A DNA stretch of 64,000 nucleotides. Source: Bacteroidota bacterium. Its GTDB lineage: Bacteria > Bacteroidota > Bacteroidia > NS11-12g > UBA955. Of this stretch, positions 1 through 5,880 are shown piece by piece (position 1 is the first letter of the stretch; each line of letters opens with the position of its first letter). Where the stretch lies: positions 1 through 64,000 of the forward strand of contig JAGXTF010000101.1 of assembly GCA_018333525.1 (NCBI GenBank), given 5' to 3'. The notes beneath the pieces were generated by a model. The model did no database searches. It was given only the letters and a program-made list of their open reading frames with translations, and was not told the origin of the DNA. The position numbers and the translations under genes are program-made.

Positions 1-381
1 CATGTTTTTCTCTGTTTCATCGCGCATAGGCATGTGCCAGCCACGCAGAACTCTCCTACAGCGCACCTTGGCTATGGATAGTACAGGGAATTTGGATACT
101 GTTGCAAATATTCTAACTTTACAGTTTATATTCCTAATGTAAAGTATTTGAAACGCACACTTACATATAAACAATATGAATTAAGTAATCACTTAGGCAA
201 CGTACTTACTACGATTTTAGACAGAAAAACAGCAGTGGTTGACACGAATAGCGCCGGTGATACCGTTATGTATTACATGGCAGATGTTTATACTGCGCAA
301 ACTTATTATGCATTTGGTAGCAGCATGCCGGGGCTTAGTTACACGCACGATTCTAGCGATGGGTATAGATTTGGGTTTAAT
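1..381 (+). repeat. Direct repeat copy A (RHS-core segment)
   Basis: This segment matches 2109-2490 with about 26 differences in 382 positions (counted by eye), most of them at silent third codon positions. It also lacks one base near position 109. Similarity stops abruptly after the codons for YRFGFN, just before each cassette's own last part of the RHS core and its tip. The left end of the repeat may lie outside the window. It looks like the homology along which RHS tips are exchanged or accumulated. Confidence 0.9.
105..112 (+). other. One-base deletion (frameshift) in RHS copy A
   Basis: Copy A reads gcaaatattctaac where copy B (around 2215) reads gcaaatgattctaat, so one base is missing. 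The frame that begins with the ATG at position 2 and matches copy B therefore runs into TAA at 140-142. The rest of the core is open only in the shifted frame, where the first usable start is TTG at 148. Either copy A is broken or its tail is translated separately. A sequencing error cannot be excluded from the sequence alone. Confidence 0.8.
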
Positions 382-1497
382 AACCAGGAGAAAGTTGGAG
401 AATTAGGTGATTATTTTGCATTTGAATACAGAATGCTCAATGCTATGCTAGGTAAATTCTTGAGTGTGGATCCTTTGGCACGAGATTATCCTGGAATTAG
501 TTGTTATGCATTTTCAGAAAATGAGCCAATAAGTTGTGTTGATTTAGAAGGTTTAGAAGCCAGCAAAGCAACAATTGTTAAAGGAAATACATACACATTA
601 AATGTAAATCCAAATAGTACATATATACTTCAAATGTGGAATGGCAGATTAGCTGAAATTACAAACGCGAAAAGTATGGAAATAGTTGGTGAAAGTGGTG
701 TAAAATATAAAACTGATGGAGGTATTGAATATAATGCACTTCCAGGAACCGTACTATCATTTGTGGACAATCAGAATAATACGGTATCCTTTGGTATGAA
801 CAACAATAAATATGAGACTACCGATAATTTAAGAACTCAAACAGGAGAGACTTGGGGAAATCAAAGAGTCTATACAGAGCGATTCAATACTTCTTTAGAT
901 AGAATGGGATTAAGTGCAAATGCAAAATTAGCAAAAGCACGACGAGAAGTATGGTATTCGTTCTGTGATCAAGGCCAGAAATTCGTATTTAACACGGCAA
1001 TAACACTAAGTACATTGGGTGCAGGCGGCGTTATTGGAGGGTCAAGATTTACAATTGGATTAACAAATTCTCTAAGTAATGCTAATGCTCAATTCATGAC
1101 AAATTTGGCGAACTCTGGAGATTTTAAAGAAGCATTTGGACAAATTAACTTGAGTTCAGTTGCAGCTGCCGGAGTTTTTCAGACTCCTTCTTTTTTGAAT
1201 TATAGTGCTGGAACAATAAGTGGCAGTGTTAATATAAATATTAATTCCTTAAGTTCTGGTGAACAATTATATAGAGACGTATCAAATACCAGGGAATTCT
1301 TAACAAACGTTGCAGGAAATGCGGTAGGAAACGGAATTTCGTATAATCTTGCGAGCATAAAGCCACACAAATTTGATTTTAATGTTGTTGAAAGGTCTTT
1401 AGATATGCCAAAATTAAATGCAGTACAAAATACATTCTCTGGTGTTGTCAGTAGCACTGTATCAGGCGTCATTAGATTAAATTCAGATACAAAGTAA
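148..1497 (+). CDS. RHS-core tail with variable tip, frameshifted upstream (copy A)
   Basis: The first ~120 residues are the end of a Bacteroidota RHS-repeat core: YELSNHLGNVL, then YYAFGSSMPG and YRFGFN, then FLSVDPLARDYP and a closing DLEG. The remaining ~310 residues are a variable tip I do not recognise. It contains a glycine-rich hydrophobic stretch around residues 280-300 (LSTLGAGGVIGG) that could act on membranes; this is inference. The natural upstream frame is cut by a one-base deletion near 109, and TTG at 148 is only the first start available after it. A small membrane protein follows 5 bp after the stop, in the usual position of an immunity gene. It is probably a displaced or degraded polymorphic-toxin tip rather than a complete RHS protein. 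Confidence 0.7.
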   Translation: MKRTLTYKQYELSNHLGNVLTTILDRKTAVVDTNSAGDTVMYYMADVYTAQTYYAFGSSMPGLSYTHDSSDGYRFGFNNQEKVGELGDYFAFEYRMLNAMLGKFLSVDPLARDYPGISCYAFSENEPISCVDLEGLEASKATIVKGNTYTLNVNPNSTYILQMWNGRLAEITNAKSMEIVGESGVKYKTDGGIEYNALPGTVLSFVDNQNNTVSFGMNNNKYETTDNLRTQTGETWGNQRVYTERFNTSLDRMGLSANAKLAKARREVWYSFCDQGQKFVFNTAITLSTLGAGGVIGGSRFTIGLTNSLSNANAQFMTNLANSGDFKEAFGQINLSSVAAAGVFQTPSFLNYSAGTISGSVNININSLSSGEQLYRDVSNTREFLTNVAGNAVGNGISYNLASIKPHKFDFNVVERSLDMPKLNAVQNTFSGVVSSTVSGVIRLNSDTK

Positions 1498-1502
1498 TAA
1501 AA

Positions 1503-1925
1503 TTGAGTATTTTTAAATTATATAAAAAAACTATCTTAACTATTTTGGGGTTATTAATATTTTTTGGTATTCTATATTTGATTGTGATCATTGGAGATTG
1601 TAGGAGTGAAGATAAATTTAATATTGAAGCTAAACAGAATGGACTTTATTGTGCACGGGTAAATTACGCAAGAAAGGGAATCGGACTAGGTACTAATATC
1701 TTTTGCGAAATACACAGAAATGGGAGGATCGATTCGGTCCCTTTCATTACATCTTGTGATAATAAACAAAAGTTGAATTTAGATCATGACTATAAAATAT
1801 TATTTGCATTTTATACTCCAAATTTGGAATACATAATGCCAATATTTACTAAAAAACAATATAGGAAACTTCAACTTTTATTTCCAGATAGTGCAGCTAT
1901 AATGGATACTACTTATCTACAATAA
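1503..1925 (+). CDS. Candidate immunity protein, single membrane anchor
   Basis: A 140-residue protein starting with TTG five bases after the RHS tip. Residues ~8-30 form one strong membrane helix (ILTILGLLIFFGILYLIVII). The remaining ~110 residues are soluble and include a Cys-containing stretch. I do not recognise the family. Position, size and spacing directly behind an RHS tip are typical of the cognate immunity gene. A membrane-anchored inhibitor would fit a membrane-acting tip, but that pairing is inference. A 184-bp AT-rich gap follows in which I see no gene. Confidence 0.55.
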   Translation: MSIFKLYKKTILTILGLLIFFGILYLIVIIGDCRSEDKFNIEAKQNGLYCARVNYARKGIGLGTNIFCEIHRNGRIDSVPFITSCDNKQKLNLDHDYKILFAFYTPNLEYIMPIFTKKQYRKLQLLFPDSAAIMDTTYLQ

Positions 1926-2108
1926 TGGTATTTTGTAGATTATGGAATTTTACAAATAACTCATTTCTAAGATAATTTGATAAAACTATACCATTTCCAA
2001 AATCATTGATTATTTACTCGGAATGGCATTCCTTCGAATCTATTGTAGCAATAATTAAGCAATTACTGCATAAAATATCACAAAAAAACACAATAAAATA
2101 CGCTTTTA

Positions 2109-2490
2109 CATGTTTTTCTCTGTTTCATCGCGCATAGGCATGTGCCAGCCACGCAGAACTCTCCTACAGCGCACCTTGGCCATGGATAGCACAGGGAATT
2201 TGGATACTGTTGCAAATGATTCTAATTTTACAGTTTATATTCCGAATGTAAAGTATTTGAAACGCACGCTTACATATAAACAATATGAATTGAGTAATCA
2301 CTTAGGCAACGTACTTACTACGGTTTTAGACAGAAAAACTGCGGTGGTAGACACGAACAGCACCGGAGATACCGTTATGTATTATATGGCAGATGTATAT
2401 ACCGCACAAACCTATTATGCATTTGGTAGCAGCATGCCCGGGCTTAGTTACAAGCACGATTCTGCTGATGGTTATAGGTTTGGGTTTAAT
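2109..2490 (+). repeat. Direct repeat copy B (RHS-core segment)
   Basis: Second copy of the 1-381 segment, here with an intact reading frame. The frame upstream is closed by TAA at 2071-2073 and there are no YD/RHS repeats before it. The cassette is therefore an orphan tail and not the end of a complete RHS gene at this place. Confidence 0.9.
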
Positions 2491-3498
2491 CGAAGCGAAA
2501 ATGTAATTGAATTGAATAATACAAATTCCTATGAATTTAGATTTTATAATCCCGCTTTACTAAGATTTTATGCTGTTGACCTTTATAATAAGAAATATCC
2601 TCAGAATAGTCCATATATAATAAATGAAAATAATCCTCTTCTATTTGTAGAGATTGATGGAAGAGATAACATTATTTATTTAATAATTCTACCTTCAGCC
2701 TTAAAGCAAAACGGTGGAGATTGGACCGTCACTGAGTTAAATGCTCTTGTAAGTTTATCAAATAAAACGTTTAAGGGCTTAGGGTTAAATACAAAAGTTG
2801 GTGTATATAATACGCTAATTAATGAAAGTACATTCAGGACATCCAGAATGGATCCAACTGATGGTGTTGTGGTATTTGGCTCAAGAGATGAAGTAATAAA
2901 ATTTATGCGTTCAAATGTCAACGCTGCATTCTCTAAACAGCTAGAAGGTGGATGGGAAGGAGGAGCAGACAATCCTGAAGAGTCAGAAAACTACACTAAA
3001 TATAATCCCAACTTTGGAATAGCAATAGATGCAAATGCATTAAATGATGTTGCTGAGATTCATTTCGGCGGGGAAATAAAAGGATCAAATAAAATTACTG
3101 CTGGAGCTTTAATAATCGCACATGGTGCTGGTCATAACTCTGGATTAGGGCATCCAGGTGAATTAACTGGAGACCCATCAACAGTAAATTCTTCTAAACT
3201 CATGTTAGATGGTCAAAAGGTTAGTGACTACTTGCAGGAATATCCGGAGTTATATCCGTCCCTATTGTCATTTGCAGATAATGCCAATGGAAGGAATAAT
3301 GATTATATTGAGAGTATGAAACTTAGGTTTGGAGATGCAACTGCAAGTAGAAATTATGAAAAAACTACAGGGGATCAAATAATTTGTGGCCCTTATTCTA
3401 CAAATTTGGTACCTTGGATCAGTTCTCCAGCGGATTATTTGGAAAATAAAAGTTGTAATTGGCAAAATTGGTTCAATGAAAGAAATAAAAACAAATGA
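2110..3498 (+). CDS. Orphan RHS-core tail with metzincin-like tip (copy B)
   Basis: 462 residues starting at ATG 2110. Residues 1-~175 are RHS core (NHLGNVL, YYAFGSSMPG, YRFGFN, closing IDG), and ~175-462 form the tip. The tip carries HGAGHNSGLGH at residues 338-348, followed by a Met at 365 (KLML). This is the zinc-ligand and Met-turn layout HExxHxxGxxH of metzincin peptidases, but the catalytic Glu is Gly339. Bacteroidota RHS tips with an intact HExxHxxGxxH are known, so this tip may be inactive, or may use the fold for zinc binding only. The stop overlaps the next start by 4 bp (ATGA), which implies translational coupling to its partner. There is no secretion signal in the cassette. Confidence 0.75.
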   Translation: MFFSVSSRIGMCQPRRTLLQRTLAMDSTGNLDTVANDSNFTVYIPNVKYLKRTLTYKQYELSNHLGNVLTTVLDRKTAVVDTNSTGDTVMYYMADVYTAQTYYAFGSSMPGLSYKHDSADGYRFGFNRSENVIELNNTNSYEFRFYNPALLRFYAVDLYNKKYPQNSPYIINENNPLLFVEIDGRDNIIYLIILPSALKQNGGDWTVTELNALVSLSNKTFKGLGLNTKVGVYNTLINESTFRTSRMDPTDGVVVFGSRDEVIKFMRSNVNAAFSKQLEGGWEGGADNPEESENYTKYNPNFGIAIDANALNDVAEIHFGGEIKGSNKITAGALIIAHGAGHNSGLGHPGELTGDPSTVNSSKLMLDGQKVSDYLQEYPELYPSLLSFADNANGRNNDYIESMKLRFGDATASRNYEKTTGDQIICGPYSTNLVPWISSPADYLENKSCNWQNWFNERNKNK

Positions 3499-4037
3499 AA
3501 AAAACCAGTTCTATCTTTGTTTTAATATTTTGCTTTATATCTTGTATCTATAAAGTTAGCGAAAAGGAGATATTGCATCCGGCAACTAATTCTAGTAAAT
3601 TAATAATTCAACATGATAGCATCAAGTATAGGTACAATATAATTAATTCAGACACTATACGTGGATATTTTATTCTTAATAAGAGTTTTTCACGTAAATT
3701 AAAGCGTAATTGTGATTCTATCAATAAAAAAGATATTATTGATCTATTTAGGTCTAATTATTATTTAACACAGAGCCAAATGAGTATTGGTATGGAAAAA
3801 TATATTGAATTACAAAGTTTTAGAATTGTCTATGTTGATTCAAATATAACCTTAGGGTTCTTTGTAGATCAAAATTGCAAATTCTATGGCGAATTTCACT
3901 TGCAAGAAAAGACATTTATAACCCCTATTGTTTCTTATATTGATTCAAATTGGGATAGGCTAAGATATCGGTTTAGTGAAATCGATTTCTTTGGTGATTA
4001 TGAATTCAATCACCAAACAACACTTGAAACCCCATGA
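3495..4037 (+). CDS. Candidate immunity lipoprotein
   Basis: 180 residues. The N-terminus (MKKTSSIFVLIFCFISC) is a lipoprotein signal with lipobox FISC, so the mature protein should be membrane-anchored in the periplasm or outer membrane. No family is recognised in the remainder. It overlaps the metzincin-like RHS tip by 4 bp, the expected arrangement for a cognate immunity gene, and overlaps the next small tip by another 4 bp. A periplasmic location would suit a toxin acting on envelope proteins (inference). Confidence 0.6.
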   Translation: MKKTSSIFVLIFCFISCIYKVSEKEILHPATNSSKLIIQHDSIKYRYNIINSDTIRGYFILNKSFSRKLKRNCDSINKKDIIDLFRSNYYLTQSQMSIGMEKYIELQSFRIVYVDSNITLGFFVDQNCKFYGEFHLQEKTFITPIVSYIDSNWDRLRYRFSEIDFFGDYEFNHQTTLETP

Positions 4038-4270
4038 TTGATAAATTTAAGGCAGAAGGTGGAATTATTCAGAAGAATCCATTAGGAGCCACTCAAGAAA
4101 TCAATATTACATTTGAAAATGGGGTAATAAAATTAGATTTTCGGATTGAGACCCACCCTTTGCCAGTTAAATACGGTGGCGACGGAATCACTCCTCAAAG
4201 ACACATGAATGTTGATTTATATCCAAATAAGAAAACTCTCCCCAACGGCGGACATAAAATTTTAGAATAA
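4034..4270 (+). CDS. Core-less RHS toxin tip fragment
   Basis: 78 residues with no RHS core and no signal. The end of the protein (PQRHMNVD, then LPNGGHKILE) looks to me like the conserved end of a polymorphic-toxin tip family, but I cannot name the family. It starts inside the previous gene's stop (ATGA overlap) and is followed 10 bp later by a small acidic protein in the immunity position. It is best read as a third, displaced tip that has lost its carrier. Confidence 0.5.
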   Translation: MIDKFKAEGGIIQKNPLGATQEINITFENGVIKLDFRIETHPLPVKYGGDGITPQRHMNVDLYPNKKTLPNGGHKILE

Positions 4271-4280
4271 ACTATAAGAA

Positions 4281-4637
4281 GTGGAAGATAATCTTTTAAT
4301 AGACATTTTGAATGTAATTCCCGCAAAAATGGAATGTTATATTCAAGCACCAAGTCTTAACAATAAAATTATTCTTGATATGTTTAAAAAAACAGAGTAT
4401 GATTATTATCAATTATTAATTATTGATGAAACAAATAAGAATACAATAGTAAATCAGGAAAGAGAAACTTCTTTTGGTATTTATGTACAACGAATTGAAA
4501 TAAAGAAGAATGGAGCTTTATTGTTTGATGGTTTTGATGGGGTAGAATTTGGAATTGTATCTAAGAACCTCGTTATTCCTGAATGGTTTAAAGAAAAATA
4601 TGTCCCTGAAACATGCATGATATCTCCTAATTGGTAA
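4281..4637 (+). CDS. Candidate immunity protein for the third tip
   Basis: 118 residues starting with GTG, soluble and without a signal peptide or membrane segment, ending in IPEWFKEKYVPETCM. The small size, cytoplasmic character and position 10 bp behind the core-less tip are those of a cytoplasmic immunity protein. I do not recognise a named Imm family with confidence. Confidence 0.5.
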   Translation: MEDNLLIDILNVIPAKMECYIQAPSLNNKIILDMFKKTEYDYYQLLIIDETNKNTIVNQERETSFGIYVQRIEIKKNGALLFDGFDGVEFGIVSKNLVIPEWFKEKYVPETCMISPNW

Positions 4638-4713: not shown

Positions 4714-5229
4714 ATGATAAAATGCTCAAATAAATCTAACTTTTGTAAAATAGATTGTATCAAAAAAGCGTGTGGCAGCTACTCCCAAGTTCATATTCAA
4801 TTAGTATTTGCGGTTCAAGGGAGACAAAATTCAATTCACTCTAAATGGGAAAAAGACTTGCACAAGTATATTACCGGCATTATTCAAAAAAAAGGGCATA
4901 AATCCATAGCAATAAATGGCATGTCAGATCATATACATATATTTTTTGGATATAAATTAACCGATACTATTCCAGATTTGGTAAGGGAAATAAAAAAAGC
5001 TTCAACTGTCTGGATAAAAGAAAACAGATTGGTTATTGGAGATTTTCACTGGCAAGAGGGTTATGGTGCATTTTCTTATAGCAATTGGGACGTTCAAAAA
5101 ATCACGAACTATATATTAAATCAAAAAGAGCACCATAAAAATATTGGTTTCAGAGAAGAATATTTAAACCTTCTTTCTGAATTTAATATCGATTTTGATA
5201 GCAGATTTTTGTTTGATTTTCATGAGTAA
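4714..5229 (+). CDS. Y1/HUH transposase of the IS200-like / RAYT group
   Basis: 171 residues of the Y1_Tnp fold, which cuts and joins single-stranded DNA at hairpins. The HUH motif is His73-Ile-His75 in SDHIHIFFG, and the likely nucleophile is Tyr133 in NYILNQKEHH. The conserved block WQEGYGAFSYS is present. The first ~20 residues are Cys/Lys-rich and unlike the family, which normally begins near SYSQVHIQ, so the start may be altered or misplaced. No accessory TnpB gene is seen. The next feature, 5 bp after the stop, is an array of palindromic repeats, which points to a REP-associated tyrosine transposase rather than an ordinary insertion sequence. Confidence 0.85.
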   Translation: MIKCSNKSNFCKIDCIKKACGSYSQVHIQLVFAVQGRQNSIHSKWEKDLHKYITGIIQKKGHKSIAINGMSDHIHIFFGYKLTDTIPDLVREIKKASTVWIKENRLVIGDFHWQEGYGAFSYSNWDVQKITNYILNQKEHHKNIGFREEYLNLLSEFNIDFDSRFLFDFHE

Positions 5230-5234
5230 TTGTT

Positions 5235-5750
5235 TGTACGACCCCTACAGGGTCGGTTTGTTTATTAACCGGCTCTGCGAGCATTGTACGACCCCTACTG
5301 GGTCGACTACTTACTAACCGGCTCTGCGAGCATTGTACGACCCCTACTGGGTCGACTACTTACTAACCGGCTCTGCGAGCATTGTACGACTCCTACTGGG
5401 TCGGCTACTTACTAACCGGCTCTGCGAGCGCTGTACGACCCGTGCAGTGTTGGCCACTTACTAACCGGCTCTGCGCATATATGACCCCCTAGGTCGGCCA
5501 CTTCATAAGCCGCTCTGTGAGCATTGTACGACCACGATAGGGTCGGCTACTTACTCACCAGCTCTGCGAGCAATGTACGACCACTACTGGATCGGCCACT
5601 TATTAACCAGTTCTTTGAGCATTGAACGACTCCTTCAGGGTCGGGCTACTTATTAACTGGCTCTGCGAACATTGTACGACCCCTACAGTGCGGGCTACTT
5701 ACTAACCGGCTCTGTGAGCATTGTACAGCCGCTACTGGGTCGAGGGAATT
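5235..5750. repeat. Tandem array of ~49-bp palindromic REP-like units (10 full, 1 partial)
   Basis: Units start at 5235, 5285, 5334, 5383, 5432, ~5477, 5525, 5574, 5623, 5673 and 5722; nearly all are 49-50 bp. Each holds two hairpins: CGACCC-ctact-GGGTCG (6-bp stem, 5-nt loop) and GCTC-tgc-GAGC (4-bp stem, 3-nt loop), joined by a conserved acttactaaccg. Units next to the transposase are almost identical and those further away are degraded. One more half-unit (caacccatacggggtcg) lies at 5777-5793. Base composition is clearly more GC-rich than the flanks. This is not a CRISPR, because there are no unique spacers. Confidence 0.9.
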
Positions 5751-5880
5751 AAGAGTGTTTTACTTTTAGCGTTTCACAACCCATACGGGGTCGAACACCC
5801 ATATCACCTCACCGAATTAAACCAACTAAAAACAAAGATCTATCGCCAATTAGCGATGCTGATTTAAGTCAAATTCACAT

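Follow-up and report, generated by a model that had tools for sequence, protein, structure and literature searches.

The first 4637 nt of the window, by which we mean the whole 64,000-nt stretch analysed of contig JAGXTF010000101.1 (C101) from a Bacteroidota bacterium, hold two RHS-core tails with unrelated tips and a third tip without a core, with one partner gene for each tip. Read from its sequence, this locus probably consists of a few orphan RHS tip/immunity cassettes in a row, polymorphic toxin cassettes of the kind that bacteria direct against their rivals. The arrangement is already known from other bacteria; here no complete toxin gene stands beside it, and it is a minor example of the very long arrays of related genomes. 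Each cassette would represent an rhs 3' end, made up of a conserved core segment (which the third does not have), a variable toxin tip and an immunity gene. As they stand, the tips would have neither an export signal nor the greater part of the RHS shell. The immunity genes could be expressed and guard against neighbours with the same tips, and recombination in the common core could join a tip to a complete rhs gene and make it usable. In this proposal it is the toxicity, the immunity, the site of action and the recombination of the cassettes that we infer.

All features lie on the plus strand. Tail 1 begins with an RHS-core leader, recognised by repeat comparison as copy 1 of a direct repeat (1–381), followed by the remaining core (FGFNNQEKVGELGDYFAFEYRML...SVDPL...DLEG, 382–558) and by tip 1 (559–1497), a 312-aa sequence which family searches place in no named family and which carries a single moderately hydrophobic, glycine-rich stretch. 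Partner 1 (1503–1925), a candidate immunity gene defined by its reading frame and family searches, encodes 140 aa with an N-terminal membrane helix as anchor. Repeat copy 2 (2022–2490, from contig overlap comparison) consists of about 87 bp of non-coding DNA and an RHS-core leader in frame from the ATG at 2110; the open frame of tail 2 runs from this ATG through the divergent remaining core (2491–2661) and tip 2 (2662–3498) to the stop at 3498. In the search with TIGR03696 (Rhs_assc_core, cut-off 32.5 bits) the remaining core of tail 1 scores 35.2 bits, above the cut-off, and that of tail 2 23.6 bits, below it. The reading frame of partner 2 (3495–4037) gives a 180-aa lipoprotein with a lipobox, again a candidate immunity gene. 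Core fragments thus lie directly 5' of tips 1 and 2, whereas tip 3 (4034–4270, 78 aa) has none; its start codon overlaps the lipoprotein stop (ATGA), and it is followed by partner 3 (imm3, 4281–4637), a soluble 118-aa protein and third candidate immunity gene. When recomputed from the sequence, these features reproduced the anatomy given by the first-pass annotation, namely two tails with a common direct repeat and unrelated tips, a small gene directly 3' of each (for a membrane-anchored protein and a lipoprotein), and a coreless third tip whose partner is soluble. No frame is interrupted in any of the three tips or the three partners.

In Pfam and NCBIfam no family covers the three partners, tip 1 or tip 3, and tip 2 gave a single match far below the cut-off; no known toxin family was matched by any window tip above the cut-off in either collection. 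This agrees with the earlier remark that the three immunity candidates belong to no family that can be named, and the three tip and three partner families added here are covered by none of the public models.

Although each of the three tips has an adjacent downstream partner gene, sequence-conserved pairing was seen for tip 3 and imm3 only. In a genome of another Bacteroidota family of the same class (G249), the last 78 residues of a complete 1178-aa RHS protein are homologous to tip 3 (54% identity), and the next gene, which overlaps the RHS gene by 4 bases, matches imm3 (42% identity), so that tip and partner stand in the same order as in the window. Among the sequence comparisons, this pair is the strongest evidence that the coreless tip 3 represents a real RHS tip and its neighbour the putative partner. 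It is the one pair of the three conserved on a complete RHS protein elsewhere; neither tip 1 nor tip 2 was found on such a protein in the genomes searched. When 395 genomes of the class were searched with an alignment of imm3, the matches were its source genome, a decayed fragment (G794) and one that is short and weak (G198). The expectation that tips and partners always occur together was therefore borne out by the joint recurrence in G249, but not by the short imm3-like fragment in G794, which has no tip. Matches of tip 3 in G198, G353 and G467 were weak, looked unrelated and were set aside. The structure model of tip 3 (pLDDT 66.3) had no match in the PDB at E ≤ 0.001, and a search of plasmids and viral contigs with tips 2 and 3 found nothing.

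The two repeat copies (1–381 and 2109–2490) show 98% identity in their first 109 bp and 92% in the 272 bp after that, with a longest exact match of 72 bases between the core copies, and the tips downstream of them are unrelated to each other. On the contig to the left (C75) the repeat runs about 87 bp beyond the window, which gives a total of about 470 bp with 93% identity to 2022–2490. Of 24 differences between the core copies, 18 fall on third codon positions (binomial p = 3.6e-5), and the differing codons comprise 17 synonymous and 5 non-synonymous ones; the copies therefore diverged while coding. A single base is missing from copy 1 near position 96, and because of this loss the ATG at position 2 is out of frame with tip 1. 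Tail 2 does start with an in-frame ATG, as do many tails of relatives, which would suit tails that work as short toxins in their own right, with no need of a full RHS protein. We regard this as improbable, since the window tails showed no signal peptide at their start and most of the leader falls within sequence homologous to the RHS core.

Window position 1 is base 1 of C101. The end of C75 is identical to window positions 1–1612 and then extends leftward; the overlap measures exactly 1612 identical bases, and C101 starts where the 72-bp exact repeat starts. Most simply, so exact an overlap would mean that C75 and C101 adjoin; two true copies of the 1612 bp are possible. Left of the repeat C75 carries IS3-like remnants and unrelated genes (translated text read by eye, no family search), and its RHS-core matches with TIGR03696 are confined to the overlapping tail. 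A complete RHS gene directly left of the array, as the first-pass annotation had predicted, was rejected on this content. The assembly is 97.8% complete with 3.8% contamination, and the sole complete RHS gene found there lies on contig C78, encodes 3528 aa and is followed by a gene for 147 aa. As a recombination partner of the window cassettes it was rejected, because the longest exact match between its core and the cassettes is 15 bases, which makes such recombination look unlikely. Contig C118 of the same genome carries two more orphan RHS tails in face-to-face orientation, and a small partner gene goes with each of them (L012:6026-9697).

The IS3-like remnants, the frameshift in copy 1, an IS200-like transposase gene at 4714–5229 and the failure to find a full rhs gene with a matching core would all suit a decaying remnant, in which displaced 3' ends of former rhs genes survive by chance and have no present function. 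We consider this rather unlikely: the frames of all tips and partners are intact, the divergence of the core copies is mostly synonymous, though this constraint may date from the time of the full gene, and the similar arrays of relatives are long and intact. As to a store of alternative tip/immunity modules, which the first-pass annotation had proposed, the absence of the main gene at the left counts against it, whereas the tip 3 pair on a full RHS protein in G249 and the homologous alternating arrays of relatives count for it; the proposal is plausible and, apart from the main gene, largely supported.

Searching 69 genomes of the family with TIGR03696 gave matches in at least 21, with at least 55 RHS-core matches in G040 and at least 24 in G011; among the matches listed, these were mostly open frames of about 300–400 aa. 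In the regions of G011, G025, G017 and G040 that we read, orphan tails and small partner genes alternate in long and intact arrays, whose leader repeats commonly measure 150–270 bp at 80–95% identity. The core DNA of orphan and complete RHS genes in relatives is 82–91% identical, and a layout with a complete RHS gene followed by orphans exists there (regions of G025 and G017). In G025 (L031:2310-13433) the complete RHS protein of 3707 aa ends in an OmpA-family domain (PF00691, E 3.4e-18), with orphan tails after it. We collected 51 tips by hand from the loci of relatives, the window, L012, L017 and L020, and partner frames were found by script. An adjacent partner frame on the same strand was present for 47 of the 51 tips, compared to a partner-like frame downstream of 26 of 47 other window genes in the control. 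A strongly hydrophobic N terminus, exported or membrane-like, was found in 38/47 partners and in 21/49 control genes, similar in size and taken from the window and C75 (Fisher p = 1.5e-4), and a lipobox by a simple rule in 23/47 and 5/49, respectively (Fisher p = 3.6e-5); both rules are crude and differ from a signal-peptide predictor. Among 30 array tails scanned, the known effector families TseH and Peptidase_M91, together with LysM, DUF4329 and Abhydrolase_8, were matched above the cut-off and Glucosaminidase below it, while most tails match nothing. Our literature search found nothing on orphan rhs cassettes with immunity in Flavobacterium.

Homologues of tip 2 were found in UBA6161 (G040) and Flavobacterium orientale, both within orphan-tail arrays, and a search against 395 genomes of the phylum returned its own genome only. 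Each of the three tips is followed by a lipoprotein of about 180–198 aa; no alignment of these three partners with one another was possible. The tips have a motif in common, which reads HGAGHNSGLGH in the window, HGAGHTAGINH in UBA6161 and HATGHNAGMG in F. orientale. In the window tip the three histidines are spaced as in the metzincin zinc site HExxHxxGxxH, but where the catalytic glutamate would stand, the window and UBA6161 tips have Gly and the F. orientale tip has Ala. The structure model of tip 2 is poor (pLDDT 39.7), and its weak matches to snake-venom metalloproteinases (E 0.5–1.1) and ADAM-8 (E 0.11) are probably driven by the motif. With the glutamate missing in 3/3 homologues and a poor model, we rejected an assignment to the metzincins. 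Tip 1 has no clear relative, and gave weak partial matches only (E 3e-4 to 1e-3) against 395 genomes of the class.

Another possibility is that selection keeps the partner genes against the toxins of neighbours, with the tips as passengers. We give this a real, if less than even, chance; it overlaps our preferred reading, and the sole difference is whether the tips are ever used. A precedent is found in E. coli EC93, where an orphan cdiI is expressed and the orphan toxin is apparently not made (PMC3150448), and the leader of tail 1 is without an in-frame ATG. Against passenger tips stand frames that are open over hundreds of codons and a tip 2 motif kept across divergent relatives; the tip sequence has therefore been under selection somewhere.

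Under our preferred reading, an array of cassettes with usable tips, a membrane protein and a lipoprotein as partners make the cell envelope or the periplasm the probable site of action of tips 1 and 2, and a soluble partner makes the cytoplasm the probable site for tip 3. That exported partners prevail in the lineage likewise suggests envelope or periplasmic targets there. A profile search of the genome itself (G000) for TssC/VipB (PF05943) gave no match, with a positive E. coli control, and SprA of the T9SS is present. We put forward only tentatively, and with some doubt, that the family keeps its RHS tips as large libraries of dozens per genome, with toxins that act mostly in the periplasm or envelope, lipoprotein immunity and delivery without a T6SS, and that tip 2 represents a new family of toxins, whose HxxGHxxGxxH motif resembles a zinc site but is without the usual catalytic glutamate. 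The lineage, whose tip arrays are of unusual length and whose partners are for the most part exported, offers a place to study tip switching, and delivery where no T6SS was detected.

The orphan rhs-CT/rhsI modules of Enterobacteriaceae (PMC3967940) likewise consist of a core fragment, a variable tip and an adjacent immunity gene. A main rhs gene at the locus is usual there and not strictly required; here none adjoins the array, the partners in the lineage are mostly lipoproteins or membrane proteins, and the genome has no TssC match. In Salmonella an orphan rhs-CT is activated when it recombines with the main gene over a 522-bp stretch of 95% identity, the proposed recombination site (PMC3967940); the 470-bp, 93% repeat, here located between two cassettes, is of similar length. 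Similarly, the orphan cdiA-CT/cdiI arrays, with eleven pairs in E. coli EC869 (PMC3150448), are ordered unrelated toxin/immunity pairs with a common upstream segment; in our case this segment is RHS core instead of VENN-delimited CdiA, and the host belongs to the Bacteroidota. Polymorphic toxin cassettes are widespread, with a median of one active toxin per three cassettes, and are likewise built of tip and immunity gene and exchanged at the 3' end (Zhang et al. 2012, PMC3482391); the tip and partner families of the window differ in having no Pfam or NCBIfam match above the cut-off. With the TANFOR polymorphic toxins of Bacteroidetes (PMC7073777) the array has in common the Bacteroidota host, the adjacent immunity gene, the diversity of immunity proteins and a proposed T9SS link, whereas Pfam searches of the complete C78 RHS protein gave only a sub-threshold DUF6443.

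Downstream of the array, the IS200-like transposase gene (4714–5229; PF01797, E 1.6e-22) is directly followed on its 3' side, at about 5228–5790, by imperfect 49-bp repeats with a CGACCC...GGGTCG hairpin. Gene and repeats together look like a REP-associated transposase with its repeats.
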